Below, in pieces: positions 16,277 through 42,820 of a DNA stretch of 64,000 nucleotides. The DNA lies in the NCBI RefSeq assembly GCF_012570745.1, contig NZ_CP046212.1, forward strand, positions 64,118 through 128,117. Direction: 5' to 3'. The position numbers and the translations under genes were made by a program. Origin of the DNA: Enterobacteriaceae endosymbiont of Donacia dentata. GTDB lineage: Bacteria > Pseudomonadota > Gammaproteobacteria > Enterobacterales > Enterobacteriaceae. The stretch's first letter is position 1; each line of letters begins with the position of its first letter. The notes under the pieces were generated by a model that was given only the letters and a program-made list of their open reading frames with translations, did not search any database and was not told the DNA's origin.

Positions 16277-17271
16277 ATGAATTTTTTTAATAAAAAAAAT
16301 ATTATAAATCATAAAAAATATGCTGCAATTTTTCCTGGACAAGGAATACAATTTATAGGTATGTTGTCTTCTTTATATAATAATTATGAAGTTATAAGAA
16401 AAACTTTTAATTATGCTTCTGAAATTCTTAAATATGATTTATGGAATTTAATTCAATATGGTTCATTAAAAAAATTAAATAAAACTTATCATACACAACC
16501 AGCAATTTTAACATCATCTATAGCTATATATAGATTATGGTTACAAAAAAATAATAATATATTATTACCTAATATCGTTATGGGTTATAGTTTAGGAGAA
16601 TATACTGCAATGGTTTGTAGTAATATTATTAATTTTTCTGATGCTATTAAAATAGTAAGATTTAGAGGTAAATTGATGCATAAGTTATCATCTAGTTTAA
16701 ATGATTGTAATAAAAATGGATATTATATGCAAACAATTATTGGAATAAAAAAAAAATAGTGGAAAATATTTGTACAAAAATTTCTAATAAAAATAATTTT
16801 GTATCAATATCTAATTATAATTCATATACTAATATTACTATTAGTGGGAATAAATTAGCTATAATTGAAGCTATAAAAATATTTAGATTTTTAGGTGCAC
16901 ATATTATACCTATAAATATAGATGTACCTTCACATTGTTTATTAATGAAACCTATAGTATATGAATTTAAAAAATTTTTAAATAAAATTATCATTCACAA
17001 ACCAAAAATTATATTTATTAATAATATTAACTGTAAATATGAAAAATCACCTAAAAAAATTAAAAAATATTTAGTTAAACAATTATATTCTACTGTAAAT
17101 TGGGTAGGATGTATAAATTTTCTAAAAAAAAAAAATATATTTAACATAATCGAATTTACTCCTAAAAAAATATTTCAAAAAATATCTAAACCAATTTTAA
17201 AAAATTTTAATATAAATTCAATTTATGATTCAAAATCATTTCTAACAACATTAAAAAAATATAAAATTTAA
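16277..17271 (+). CDS. fabD: Malonyl-CoA:ACP transacylase, reading frame broken at an A10 tract
   Basis: FabD loads malonyl groups onto ACP. The gene is in two frames. Part 1 (16277-16759, 160 aa) has FPGQGIQ, the QPAILTSS region and the nucleophile motif GYSLGEY (Ser105), and ends IGIKKK-stop. Part 2 continues in the -1 frame from about 16750 to 17271 with VENICTKIS, ITISGNK, VPSHCLLMKP (catalytic His), LVKQLY and the final helix. The break falls exactly at ten A residues (16747-16756); one extra A, or a -1 slip, restores one continuous FabD of E. coli length. Both catalytic residues and all motifs are conserved on both sides, so I read it as functional through slippage rather than dead, or as a sequencing error. 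The GTG at 16759 is not a credible independent start. Confidence 0.85.
16747..16756 (+). other. A10 tract, candidate slippage site in fabD
   Basis: Ten consecutive A residues follow GGAAT and precede TAGTGG. In frame 1 they give Lys-Lys-Lys-stop. With eleven A residues in the mRNA, or a -1 ribosomal slip on AAAAAAA, translation reads Lys-Lys-Lys-Ile-Val-Glu into the downstream half. Poly(A) polymerase slippage that rescues gene function is documented in Buchnera and Blochmannia; applying it here is inference. Confidence 0.6.
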
Positions 17272-17281
17272 TCTTATAAAA

Positions 17282-18028
17282 ATGAATATTAATCTTAATG
17301 GTAAAATAGCTTTAGTTACTGGTGCAAGTAAAGGTATAGGCTATAATATAGCTAATACATTAGCTATGTGTGGAGCTTATGTTATTGGTACATCTACTAA
17401 TTTAAATGGGATAAAAATAATAAATCATTATTTAGGTAAAAATGGTATTGGTTTAATTCTTAATTTTAAAAATAATTCTCCATATATTATTAATAATTTT
17501 ATTAGATATATTATTAAAAATTTTAAAAGTTTAGATATATTAGTTAATAATTCTGGAATAATATATAATAAACTTGTATTAAATATGAAAGATTATCAAT
17601 GGGATAATGTTTTAAAAGTTAATTTAACTTCTGTTTTTAGACTATGTAGAGAAGTTATTTATTATATGTTAAAAAAATCATTTGGTCGTATAATTAATAT
17701 TAGTTCTGTAATAGGTACTATTGGTGGTATAGGACAATCTAATTACGCAGCAACCAAAGCAGGAATTATAGGATTTAGTAAATCTTTAGCTTTAGAAGTA
17801 GCACATAGAGGAATTACTGTAAATGTTATATCTCCTGGTTATGTAGAAACTGATATGACATTAAAATTAAAAAAAAAATATCGTGATAATATAAAATTAA
17901 AAATTCCATCTAAACGTTTGGGAAATCCTCAAGAAATAGCTGATGCTGTAATTTTTTTAGTTTCTGATAAAGCATCCTATATAACAGGAGAAACATTACA
18001 TATTAATGGTGGTCTATATATGAAATAA
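17282..18028 (+). CDS. fabG: 3-oxoacyl-[acyl-carrier-protein] reductase
   Basis: NADPH-dependent first reduction of the elongation cycle. The 248 residues show the short-chain dehydrogenase plan: TGASKGIG cofactor loop near residue 13, NNSG near 90, the catalytic Ser in NISSV, Tyr and Lys in SNYAATKAG, then SPGYVETDM and ITGETLHINGG at the end. It starts 11 bases after the fabD stop in the conserved fabD-fabG-acpP-fabF order. Confidence 0.96.
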   Translation: MNINLNGKIALVTGASKGIGYNIANTLAMCGAYVIGTSTNLNGIKIINHYLGKNGIGLILNFKNNSPYIINNFIRYIIKNFKSLDILVNNSGIIYNKLVLNMKDYQWDNVLKVNLTSVFRLCREVIYYMLKKSFGRIINISSVIGTIGGIGQSNYAATKAGIIGFSKSLALEVAHRGITVNVISPGYVETDMTLKLKKKYRDNIKLKIPSKRLGNPQEIADAVIFLVSDKASYITGETLHINGGLYMK

Positions 18029-18094: not shown

Positions 18095-18343
18095 ATGAAT
18101 AAAAATGATTCTATTATTAAAAGAGTTAAAAAAGTTATTGCTAATGTTTTAGAAATTAAAGAAAAAAATATTACAAATGATACTTCTTTTAAAGATTTAA
18201 ATGTTGATTCTCTTGAAACTATTGAAATTATAATGTCATTAGAAGAAGAATTTAATATTGAAATTTCAGATGAAGATACTGAAAAAATTACTTCTATTCA
18301 AGAAGCAATTAATTATATTAATAATTATGAAAATCAAAATTAA
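18095..18343 (+). CDS. acpP: Acyl carrier protein
   Basis: An 82-residue acidic carrier of growing acyl chains as phosphopantetheine thioesters. The modified serine is Ser39 in VDSLET, and helix II LETIEIIMSLEEEFNIEI and the acidic C-terminal helix are typical. AGGAAA near 18085 is the likely ribosome site. It also supplies octanoyl-ACP for LipB. Confidence 0.97.
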   Translation: MNKNDSIIKRVKKVIANVLEIKEKNITNDTSFKDLNVDSLETIEIIMSLEEEFNIEISDEDTEKITSIQEAINYINNYENQN

Positions 18344-18424: not shown

Positions 18425-19666
18425 ATGTATAAACGTAGAGTAGTAATTACTGGTATTGGTATGATTACTCCTATAGGTAATTCAATAAAATCTAATTGGT
18501 GTAATCTTATAAATGGAAATAGTGGTATAAATTTAATTAATACTTTTAATACAAATAAATATAAAACTAAAATTGCTGGTCTTATAAAAAATTTTAAATA
18601 TAAAAATTATTTTATAAATAAAAAAAAAAAAAATATTGATTTATTTATACAATATGGATTAGTTGCTTGTAAAGAAGCTATTAAAAATTCTGGTATAATA
18701 TTTAAGAAAAATTATAATCCAAGATTTGGTGTTTCTGTTGGTTCAGGATTAGGTGGTATAAATTTAATTGAAAAAAATTCTTATATTTTAAATAAAAAAG
18801 GTTTAAAAAAAATAAGCCCTTTTTTTTTCCCATCTACTATCATAAACATGATAACAGGAAATATTTCAATTGACTATAAATTAACTGGTCCAAGTTTATC
18901 AATTAGTACAGCTTGTAGTTCAGGAATTCATAATATTGGTATAGCTTTTAAAATAATATCTTATAATGATGCTGATATTATGATCGCTGGAGCATCAGAA
19001 AAAGCTGTTACTCCTTTAAGTTTAGGTGGTTTTTGTGCTATGAAAGTTTTATCTAAAAGAAATAATCAACCTAAAAAAGCAAGTAGGCCATGGGATAAGG
19101 ATAGAGATGGATTTGTAATTGGAGATGGAGCAGGTATATTAATTTTAGAAGAATATAATCATGCAAAAAAAAGAAATGCAAATATTTTTGCTGAATTAAT
19201 TGGATTTGGAATGAGTAATGATGCATATCATATAACTTCTCCTTCTTTAAATGGGAAAGGAGCTCAGTTATCTATGTTAAATGCATTAAAAGATGCAAAT
19301 ATTAATCCTGAAAAAATTCAATATATAAATGCACATGGCACATCTACTGTATTAGGAGATATAGCAGAAGCAAATGCTATTAAAATAGTTTTTAAACATA
19401 ATTATTCTAAATTATTTGTCAGTTCTACTAAATCTATTACTGGACATTTATTAGGTGCTGCAGGAGCAATTGAATCTATTTATTCTATTTTATCATTAAA
19501 AAATCAAATAGTTCCACCGACAATTAATTTAGATCATCCTGATAAAGATTTAAATTTAGATTTTGTACCTCATTTTTCACGTAATGTAAATAATATGAAA
19601 TATGTACTATGTAATTCTTTTGGTTTTGGAGGTACTAATGCGTCATTAATTTTTAAAAAAATATAA
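18425..19666 (+). CDS. fabF: 3-oxoacyl-[acyl-carrier-protein] synthase II
   Basis: A condensing enzyme that extends acyl-ACP with malonyl-ACP. The 413 residues equal E. coli FabF. The Cys-His-His triad is complete: STACSSG, NAHGTSTVLGD and SITGHLLGAAG, with the closing FGFGGTNAS. Because fabH is missing from this cluster, FabF could be the only condensing enzyme in the cluster, and priming may need another route. The gene holds a 14-A tract in a Lys-rich loop near residue 66, yet its frame is intact. pabC and mltG, which follow in E. coli, are gone. Confidence 0.96.
   Translation: MYKRRVVITGIGMITPIGNSIKSNWCNLINGNSGINLINTFNTNKYKTKIAGLIKNFKYKNYFINKKKKNIDLFIQYGLVACKEAIKNSGIIFKKNYNPRFGVSVGSGLGGINLIEKNSYILNKKGLKKISPFFFPSTIINMITGNISIDYKLTGPSLSISTACSSGIHNIGIAFKIISYNDADIMIAGASEKAVTPLSLGGFCAMKVLSKRNNQPKKASRPWDKDRDGFVIGDGAGILILEEYNHAKKRNANIFAELIGFGMSNDAYHITSPSLNGKGAQLSMLNALKDANINPEKIQYINAHGTSTVLGDIAEANAIKIVFKHNYSKLFVSSTKSITGHLLGAAGAIESIYSILSLKNQIVPPTINLDHPDKDLNLDFVPHFSRNVNNMKYVLCNSFGFGGTNASLIFKKI
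18620..18633 (+). other. A14 tract inside the intact fabF frame
   Basis: Fourteen consecutive A residues encode Lys-Lys-Lys-Lys and part of the next Asn codon. The genomic frame is open on both sides. A tract this long would be expected to yield mRNAs of several lengths, only some of them in frame. Confidence 0.6.
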
Positions 19667-33609: not shown

Positions 33610-34878
33610 ATGCAACAAAATTATAATTTAAAAAAAATAGATAAAAAATTAAATTTATTTAATAAAAAAAAATTATTAGAAAAGGATCATAGGTCTATAG
33701 GAAAAAAATTAGATTTATATCATTTCCAAAATGAATCTCCGGGAATGGTTTTTTGGCATAATAATGGTTATATTATTTTTCGTGAATTAGAAAATTTTTT
33801 ACGTTTAAAATTAAATCAATATAATTATATAGAAGTAAAAACTCCTTTAATAACTGATATTTCTATATGGAAAAATACAGGACATTGGAAAATTTATAAA
33901 AAAGCAATTTTTACTACTTATTCCGAAAATAGAAAATATTGTATTAAACCTATGAACTGTCCTGGACATATACAAATTTTTCAACAAAAATTAAAATCAT
34001 ATAGAGATTTACCATTAAGAATTGCAGAATTTGGTATTTGTCATAGAAATGAATCATCAGGATCACTACATGGTTTAATGAGATTAAGAAATTTTACTCA
34101 AGATGATGCACATATATTTTGTACAAAAAATCAAGTTATACAAGAAATAGAAAATTGTATTAATATGATGTATGATATTTATCGTGTTTTTGGTTTTAAA
34201 AAATTTTTAATTAGATTATCAACAAGACCTTTAAATAAAATTGGTAATGATAAACTTTGGGATCAAACAGAAAATGATTTATCTTATATTTTAAAAAAAT
34301 TAAATATTAATTTTGAATATAAAATAGGTGAAGGAGCATTTTATGGTCCTAAAATAGAGTTTTCTTTTTTTGATTGTTTAAATAGAGAATGGCAATGTGG
34401 TACAATTCAATTAGACTTTACATTACCACAATGTTTAAATTTATTTTATATTAATAAGAAAAATATACATGATACTCCAATTATTATACATCGTGCTATT
34501 TTAGGTTCAATAGAAAGATTTATAGGTATTCTTCTTGAAGAATTCTCTGGTTATTTACCTATTTGGTTAGCACCTATTCAAATAATAATATTAAATATTA
34601 GTGAAAAACATAATGATTATGTTTTAAAAATATTTAAAATAATTAAAAAAAATAATATTCGTGTAGAATATGATATAAAAAATCAAAAAATATCATTTAA
34701 AATTAGACAATATACTATTCAACATATTCCTTATATTTTTATATGTGGAGATCAAGAAATTAAAAATAATACAATTTCTGTTAGAAATTGTTTTGGTAAA
34801 AATTTGGGATTTATGAACATTCATGATATTATTAACAAAATAAAAAAAGAAATTATTAATTATAGTTTAAAAAATTAA
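33610..34878 (+). CDS. thrS: Threonyl-tRNA synthetase lacking the N-terminal TGS and editing domains
   Basis: A class II synthetase charging tRNA-Thr. Only 422 residues are present against 642 in E. coli. The protein starts just before the catalytic core (KDHRSIGKKLDLYHFQNESPGMVFWHN) and keeps motif 1, motif 2 (CHRNESSGSLHGLMRLR), the zinc ligands in NCPGH, DDAHIF and IHRAILG, and the anticodon-binding domain. The N1 (TGS) and N2 (editing) domains, about 220 residues, are wholly missing, and the 158 bases upstream hold no remnant. It cannot clear Ser-tRNA-Thr in cis. It leads the thrS-infC-rpmI-rplT unit. Confidence 0.96.
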   Translation: MQQNYNLKKIDKKLNLFNKKKLLEKDHRSIGKKLDLYHFQNESPGMVFWHNNGYIIFRELENFLRLKLNQYNYIEVKTPLITDISIWKNTGHWKIYKKAIFTTYSENRKYCIKPMNCPGHIQIFQQKLKSYRDLPLRIAEFGICHRNESSGSLHGLMRLRNFTQDDAHIFCTKNQVIQEIENCINMMYDIYRVFGFKKFLIRLSTRPLNKIGNDKLWDQTENDLSYILKKLNINFEYKIGEGAFYGPKIEFSFFDCLNREWQCGTIQLDFTLPQCLNLFYINKKNIHDTPIIIHRAILGSIERFIGILLEEFSGYLPIWLAPIQIIILNISEKHNDYVLKIFKIIKKNNIRVEYDIKNQKISFKIRQYTIQHIPYIFICGDQEIKNNTISVRNCFGKNLGFMNIHDIINKIKKEIINYSLKN

Positions 34879-41473: not shown

Positions 41474-42820
41474 TTAATAGTCAATTTTTTGTATTTTCAT
41501 AATACGTAATATAACTAAAAATGCTGCAACTGTTAATCCAATTATAAACCCAATCCAAAAACCAGCAGGACCCATTGGGGATACAATAAAATTAGTAATA
41601 GATAAAAAATAACCAATAGGTAAACTTATTACCCAATAGGAAAAAAAAGTAATTAAAAAAATAGATTTAGTATCTTTATATCCTTTTAATATACCACATC
41701 CGATAACTTGAATAGAATCTAAAATTTGATAAATAGATGCTAATAAAATTAAATGTGAAGCTAAATTTATAGTGTTTTTACTATGATTATAAAAAGAAGC
41801 TATTTTATTTTTTAAAATAATACTTATAAAAAAAATAAAAAAAGATATTATTATTCCTATAATTTGTGAAATCCAACTAATAATTTTTGCTTTTTCTTTA
41901 TAACCTAAACCAAGATAAAATCCAATTATTATAGTTGTAGAAATACTTAAAGATAAAGGAATAACAAAAATAAATGAACTAAAATTTAAAGCTATTTGAT
42001 GACTAATAATACTTTCTATTTCCATATTAGAAGATATTAAAAAAAAAACAATACTAAATAATGTTATTTCAAAAAAAATAGATAATCCAATAGGAATACC
42101 TAATTTTAGTAATTTCATTAGTATTTTAATATCAGGTTTATTAAATAAACTAAAATATTTAATATCATGAAATCGTTTAGATTTTGACATACATCCTAGA
42201 GTAAGAAAAAACATTATCCAATAGATTAAAACAATAGATATACTACATCCAATTCCTCCAAATTTTGGTATATAACCTAAACCATATATAAAAATATAAT
42301 TTATAGGTATATATAAAATTACACCTAACCAATTAATTAACATATCTGGTATAATAAACGATAAACTTATACATTGGCATCTTAATACTTGTAATAATAA
42401 ATATCCGGGTATACTCCAGGAAATAATTTTTAAATAAATTTTTGTTTTTAAAATTATAAATTTATTTTTAGATAAAAATGATATTAAAAAACCAATTTTA
42501 TAAAAAATTAATATCATAATACAAGATATTATTATTACTAATAAATATGATTGTTTTATATAATTTGTTATATTTTTTCTCTTATTAGATCCATTAATTT
42601 TAGTAATAATAGGGATTAAAGATAATAAAATACCATGACTAAATAATATTATTGGTAATGATATTGATGTACCCATAGCTACAATAGCCATATCTATATT
42701 ACTATAATATCCAGACATAATACTATTTATAATACTTATTAAAATACATGCTATTTGTGTTAAAATAATTGGTATTGTAAGATTAAATAATTTTTTTATT
42801 TCAATTAAATATTTTTGCAC
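41474..42820 (-). CDS. mdtK: MATE-family multidrug/Na+ antiporter MdtK
   Basis: A 448-residue inner-membrane exporter with about 12 hydrophobic segments, collinear with E. coli MdtK (457). Signatures are MQKYLIEIKKLFNLTIPIIL at the start, MSGYYSNIDMAIVAMGTSI, IPGYLLLQVLR, YQILDSIQVIGCGILKGYKDT, and GPAGFWIGFIIGL near the end. It starts with GTG at 42820 preceded by AAGGAT; the overlapping ATG two bases upstream is out of frame. A drug exporter is an unexpected survivor in so small a genome; it may export host or metabolic cations. Confidence 0.95.
   Translation of the reverse strand: MQKYLIEIKKLFNLTIPIILTQIACILISIINSIMSGYYSNIDMAIVAMGTSISLPIILFSHGILLSLIPIITKINGSNKRKNITNYIKQSYLLVIIISCIMILIFYKIGFLISFLSKNKFIILKTKIYLKIISWSIPGYLLLQVLRCQCISLSFIIPDMLINWLGVILYIPINYIFIYGLGYIPKFGGIGCSISIVLIYWIMFFLTLGCMSKSKRFHDIKYFSLFNKPDIKILMKLLKLGIPIGLSIFFEITLFSIVFFLISSNMEIESIISHQIALNFSSFIFVIPLSLSISTTIIIGFYLGLGYKEKAKIISWISQIIGIIISFFIFFISIILKNKIASFYNHSKNTINLASHLILLASIYQILDSIQVIGCGILKGYKDTKSIFLITFFSYWVISLPIGYFLSITNFIVSPMGPAGFWIGFIIGLTVAAFLVILRIMKIQKIDY

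Follow-up and report, generated by a model that had tools for sequence, protein, structure and literature searches.

The gene fabD is carried in two reading frames that meet at a poly(A) tract in 19 of the 24 reed-beetle symbiont genomes that we compared. We consider it likely (roughly three chances in four, judging from the sequences) that a register one base short arose in an ancestor of these 19 and that full-length FabD has since been made through slippage of RNA polymerase at the tract. The case comes from the symbiont of Donacia dentata, in a stretch of 64,000 nucleotides of its chromosome (hereafter the window). The genome consists of two contigs totalling 465,589 bp, a chromosome of 458,942 bp and a plasmid of 6,647 bp.

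In the window, fabD consists of two open reading frames on the forward strand, one nucleotide out of register, which meet at ten consecutive A (16747-16756), as the earlier note had stated from the letters; ORF coordinates and profile matches agree. The 5' part (16277-16759) encodes 160 residues, ends at a TAG codon (16757-16759), and carries the Gln of PGQG, the Ser of GYSLGEY, and the Arg of FRGKLM. The 3' part (16759-17271) lies in the -1 frame, which is open from 16714, and carries the His of VPSHC and the Gln of KQLY. The placement of GYSLGEY in the first half and VPSHC in the second thus stands as first described. We take these five residues, including the nucleophilic Ser, to be the active-site residues of FabD. 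Both frames are open only across the 46 nucleotides from 16714 to 16759, and the change of frame must therefore occur there. The A10 tract, the proposed slippage site, is the sole run of at least eight A inside this overlap and is one nucleotide short of joining the frames. In the RNA, either an additional A or a ribosomal slip of -1 could cure the offset, in line with the earlier claim that either would rejoin the gene.

The two halves match complementary parts of the NCBIfam profile for fabD (TIGR00128, 290 positions): the 5' half covers positions 2-138 (E-value 1.9e-42) and the 3' half positions 144-287 (7.6e-25). Scored separately, they reach 144 and 87 bits and stay under the curated cut-off of 260.9, which all five orthologues from symbionts of Plateumaris pass (285-298 bits). 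A profile search of the two contigs of the window's genome found no second TIGR00128 locus. The neighbouring genes fabG (17282-18028), acpP (18095-18343), and fabF (18425-19666), all on the forward strand, are intact by ORFs and profile matches, as the earlier note had it, and served as control genes. The start codon used by other Donacia symbionts is gone from the window's fabD (16277-16330), and an in-frame ATG further upstream, at 16277, makes the N-terminus of its FabD about 11 residues longer. A search of a phage collection with fabD gave no match.

The comparison covered 24 genomes of the same genus, including the window's own and that of the Donacia piscatrix symbiont (NZ_CP046200.1). 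They represent 24 of the 26 published species, the remaining two being the symbionts of D. versicolorea and D. semicuprea. The fabD profile match falls in two frames in 19 genomes: 16 belong to symbionts of Donacia, two to those of Macroplea, and one to that of Neohaemonia. In the remaining five, all from Plateumaris, the match stays in one frame. In all 19 the second frame lies at -1 to the first and the tract occupies an identical site, beginning 164 nucleotides past the base that opens the GYSLG/GHSLG codons. The tract is A9 in one genome, A10 in 11, and A13 in seven; reading the alignment, these differences are substitutions at the 3' edge with no net indels. The five Plateumaris genes are in frame at the site, which is one nucleotide longer and lacks a long A run, a single-frame status that concerns the body of the gene only. 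The Gln, Ser, Arg, and His of the active site are kept in 24/24 genomes and the second Gln in 23, the exception being the symbiont of N. nigricornis, where His replaces the Gln of KQLY. In both Macroplea symbionts the PGQGxQ region has diverged to PGQDVL, with the first Gln kept.

A tree of rluC, fabG, acpP, and fabF, with Plateumaris set as the outgroup, splits the 19 from the five with an ultrafast bootstrap of 100 (98 with third positions alone). The simplest history suggested by these sequences is a single origin of the offset on the stem of the 19, since a single-frame fabD is also found in more distant relatives (e.g., the two genomes that we label G028 and G029). Among 43 clusters of coding A/T tracts of at least nine nucleotides in 8-kb loci, the fabD tract is alone in being present in 19/19 genomes; the next is present in 15. 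The offset is not a matter of chance: the same tract carries it in every genome outside Plateumaris.

Both halves of fabD appear to be under purifying selection, and the gene does not look like one in decay. We estimated dN/dS as medians of pairwise NG86 values, a method that is crude at 20% GC, from pairs with dS between 0.05 and 1; these were 160 and 166 of the 171 pairs among the 19 shifted genomes for the two halves, and 10/10 pairs in Plateumaris. The values were 0.320 in the shifted clade versus 0.268 in Plateumaris for the 5' half and 0.427 versus 0.386 for the 3' half, which exceeds all other genes of the comparison in each clade. The controls gave 0.311 versus 0.264 for fabG, 0.397 versus 0.237 for acpP, 0.229 versus 0.192 for fabF, and 0.327 versus 0.266 for rluC; tmk gave 0.328 in the 19, with a single pair in Plateumaris. 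From Plateumaris to the shifted clade, the fabD values thus rise 1.2-fold (5' half) and 1.1-fold (3' half), and those of the four controls 1.2- to 1.7-fold. The earlier note had proposed this comparison of both halves among relatives, and its outcome resembles that of the control genes. We also simulated neutral evolution along the third-position tree with the base frequencies of the control genes and an assumed kappa of 3. Under this model, in-frame stops should number 16.4 and 18.3 per sequence in the two halves; none was observed in any of the 38 half-genes.

A gene that has decayed offers a contrast. The MATE transporter gene of the window (41474-42820, reverse strand) is intact, and in the D. 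clavipes symbiont it is matched only in pieces spread over three frames; it has therefore truly decayed in one of two close species. Elsewhere in the window, thrS (33610-34878) has a profile match that begins at position 162 of 565, and its N-terminal part is absent, as if the editing region had been lost.

We used the length of A/T tracts of at least eight nucleotides in the window region, compared in six pairs of close species, as a clock; only 61 genes were called in this region of the window's own genome. For non-coding tracts, 11 of 47 comparisons showed a change in length (7 of 28 in a stricter run with three pairs). After scaling by the length of the tree, 5.2-6.9 changes would be expected of a neutral tract in the shifted clade, and the fabD tract shows no change of register (P of about 0.005-0.001), in a test that is rough, with few tracts, six pairs weighted alike, and changes that are perhaps not all due to slippage. 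With non-coding tracts of at least nine nucleotides only, 3/20 changed, for an expectation of about 3.4-4.4 and P of about 0.04-0.01; longer non-coding tracts were no more changeable than shorter ones. The third Lys codon of the site is Lys in all 19 shifted genomes and variable in Plateumaris. At the 5' end of the Plateumaris fabD lies another tract, of A9-A13, whose length varies by non-multiples of three among the five close species. Given no changes against the three to seven expected, the variability of this 5' tract, and the persistence of the internal tract in 19/19 genomes, the short register of the fabD tract looks maintained, and it is probably selection rather than chance that keeps it.

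Coding tracts changed length in 9 of 906 comparisons, five of them by a number other than a multiple of three. Three of these five lie within 25 nucleotides of a gene end (the start of fabD, rnhA, and infC); the remaining two are in dnaQ, where further gaps compensate, and in the MATE transporter gene. The start of the Plateumaris fabD is itself peculiar. Its A9-A13 tract occupies the position of the ATG of relatives, and in four of the five genomes there is no in-frame ATG, GTG, or TTG between the last stop and PGQG; the fifth has a TTG right at the end of the tract. In all five, the TTG or ATG codons upstream whose frame continues into the tract do not share the frame of the gene. Slippage at this 5' tract would account for this, as would initiation at a non-AUG codon.

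We surveyed internal breaks of genes by comparing the window region with five relatives and a further 100-kb stretch among four genomes, which together brought about 36% of the window's chromosome into the comparison for split genes. The second stretch revealed a split dnaG, the DNA primase gene, in the P. sericea symbiont. This gene mirrors fabD: it is in two frames in the five Plateumaris symbionts and in one frame in the 19 others. The Plateumaris frames overlap by 19 nucleotides around a tract of A11 (one genome) or A13 (four), and the offset has the same direction, -1, as in the fabD of the sister clade. At the aligned site of the 15 single-frame genes (out of 19) that were compared, A runs reach eight nucleotides in one gene and no more than seven in the rest; two of the 15 have an A9 slightly upstream. 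The two genes are split reciprocally, and thus each clade provides a single-frame control for the gene of the other. Besides fabD and dnaG, the survey hits that we inspected looked, by eye, like tRNA regions, ORFs of antisense appearance, a cold-shock gene, or leaders preceding the real start (dnaQ, pheT). The frame of the tail of rne differs between the two Plateumaris symbionts compared. A suspected second frameshift, in gyrA at the end of the window, was rejected: its frame is open and its score exceeds the cut-off in 24/24 genomes. It had looked broken because the ORF list began at an internal ATG.

Similar splits of fabD occur beyond this genus. Among 198 genomes drawn from the family, 53 from outside the genus are of at most 1.0 Mb (by hand count), and 50 of these have a fabD match. 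At least four of the 50 (labelled G120, G240, G156, and G166) have fabD in two frames, with the break at an A10 tract in each. The break is at the homologous place in G120, about 13 codons further on in G240, and just before GHSLGEY in G156 and G166; judging by the ORF coordinates, slippage in three of these genes would have to run in the direction required in the reed-beetle symbionts. From these four, fabD seems to be a recurrent site of poly(A) frame breaks. In one of the four genomes, fabG is also apparently in two frames.

Several other explanations of the split must be weighed against slippage of the polymerase. All the genomes come from one study and pipeline (PMC7289800), which could favour a homopolymer error of sequencing or assembly. 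However, as far as the excerpts of that paper tell, they were obtained with paired Illumina reads of 150 bp, plus PacBio for the symbiont of M. mutica (PMC7289800). The same offset is found in 19/19 genomes across tracts of 9, 10, and 13 nucleotides, Plateumaris is in frame in 5/5, and coding tracts elsewhere hold their register in 901/906 comparisons between close species. We give such an error hardly any credence. A pseudogene in slow decay would explain the broken frame and the somewhat high dN/dS of the 3' half, but it is very improbable when 19 species carry no further lesion, when stops are absent from halves in which 16-18 each would be expected, and when the genome has no second TIGR00128 locus. 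With the offset shared by the 19 and Plateumaris in frame, an error of assembly is very unlikely, and so is a recent decay. The halves might instead be translated separately, through reinitiation, and come together as a split FabD. In the window the TAG of the first frame indeed overlaps a GTG of the -1 frame, directly after the tract (16759), and two of the 18 shifted relatives have a GTG there too: the symbiont of D. clavipes and that of N. nigricornis, which in addition has an ATG further upstream. Yet the first ATG, GTG, or TTG after the tract follows directly in these three genomes only; it comes at +41 in two, at +77 to +131 in three, and at +185 to +189 in the other 11, just past the catalytic His. 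Free halves would also need neither a fixed register nor an A tract, and we hold this arrangement to be decidedly improbable.

A ribosomal -1 frameshift, in which two Lys tRNAs slip in tandem on A AAA AAA, would restore the same protein. The heptamer is in phase in 19/19 genomes (codons TTA or ATA, then AAA AAA), and the required direction suits such a slip. Against it, we found no conserved downstream stem (no consensus pairs, with 11 of the 19 sequences folded and about 100 nucleotides downstream included). A slip on this heptamer needs seven A, and the fabD tract never has fewer than nine in the 19. Transcription is favoured because seven A would suffice for the ribosome and the observed minimum is near the length of the RNA-DNA hybrid of RNA polymerase, which is 9-10 bp (review PMC5009743). 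Ribosomal slippage is thus unlikely here, and the slippage is most likely transcriptional.

Slippage of RNA polymerase would work as follows. A register one base short would have been fixed at the poly(A) tract of fabD in the ancestor of the symbionts of Donacia, Macroplea, and Neohaemonia. RNA polymerase would slip back on the A9-A13 tract and insert a single extra A (or any number equal to it modulo three). The slipped fraction of the transcripts would encode full-length malonyl-CoA:ACP transacylase, presumably in sufficient amount, and the unslipped transcripts a truncated N-terminal half. According to excerpts of the published work, insertions predominate among transcription errors in homopolymers of Buchnera and rise with length up to 11 nucleotides (PMC5574713), and slippage at poly(A) gives 12-50% of corrected transcripts in genes of aphid and ant endosymbionts (review PMC5009743). 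The proposal of the earlier note that fabD is alive and rescued at its poly(A) tract is therefore one that the data support: conservation in 19/19 genomes, zero stops, dN/dS like that of the controls, and the dnaG mirror case all point to it.

Rescue at poly(A) in Buchnera and Blochmannia had been called established, and the literature, as far as the parts available go, agrees: homopolymer frameshifts thought to be corrected by slippage are a recognised class there, including dnaG in B. vafer (PMC3017870, PMC4389277). These cases (Tamas 2008; via PMC5009743, PMC3017870) resemble fabD in concerning AT-rich insect endosymbionts, a single poly(A) indel, an otherwise undecayed gene, and an expected mix of transcripts. 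They differ in that slipped mRNAs were measured, for cell-wall and histidine genes, whereas here the gene is fabD, observed in the DNA of reed-beetle symbionts. The ancient frameshifts of Blochmannia (Wernegreen, Kauppinen, and Degnan 2010; via PMC3017870) are, like that of fabD, shared between species and undegraded. The Blochmannia case spans about 40 million years (PMC4389277) and that of fabD 19/19 species from three host genera; the reed-beetle subfamily diversified over 75-100 million years, and the clade of the 19 is younger (PMC7289800). Beyond the Blochmannia case, fabD adds the register test and a reciprocal gene in the sister clade. The dnaX gene of Thermus thermophilus (PMC1088944) also has a tract of the A9 class, two products, and mixed transcripts, but there the genomic frame gives the long product and slippage the short one, whereas in fabD slippage would be needed for the long product. 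The main texts of two papers on reed-beetle symbiont genomes mention no frameshift, slippage, pseudogene, or fabD, and among the matches listed in our searches we recognised no report of the fabD frameshift in these symbionts or of the reciprocal dnaG. The mechanism is known; the gene, the lineage, and the reciprocal dnaG case appear to be new within the literature that could be searched.

The finding would extend slippage-dependent expression to an essential gene of lipid synthesis, as well as to the DNA primase gene of the sister clade. Gene-calling programs and reconstructions of pathways could score both fabD and dnaG as broken. Public RNA-seq data of the symbionts (ENA PRJEB73718, Illumina, 2 x 150 nt) make slippage directly testable. 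The two clades also form a natural experiment, replicated across the phylogeny, on whether frameshifts of this kind are merely tolerated or actively kept. A further idea, on which we are doubtful, is that selection defends slippage as a fixed step of expression, so that sister clades run fabD and dnaG off frame in the same direction and a return to the frame is disfavoured. If this were true, the polymerase might, for example, add one A so regularly that the 'short' tract in the DNA is the right one or, alternatively, the yield of slippage might set the dose of the enzyme. The fabD of Plateumaris may then be a third case, in which slippage joins an upstream start codon to the gene.
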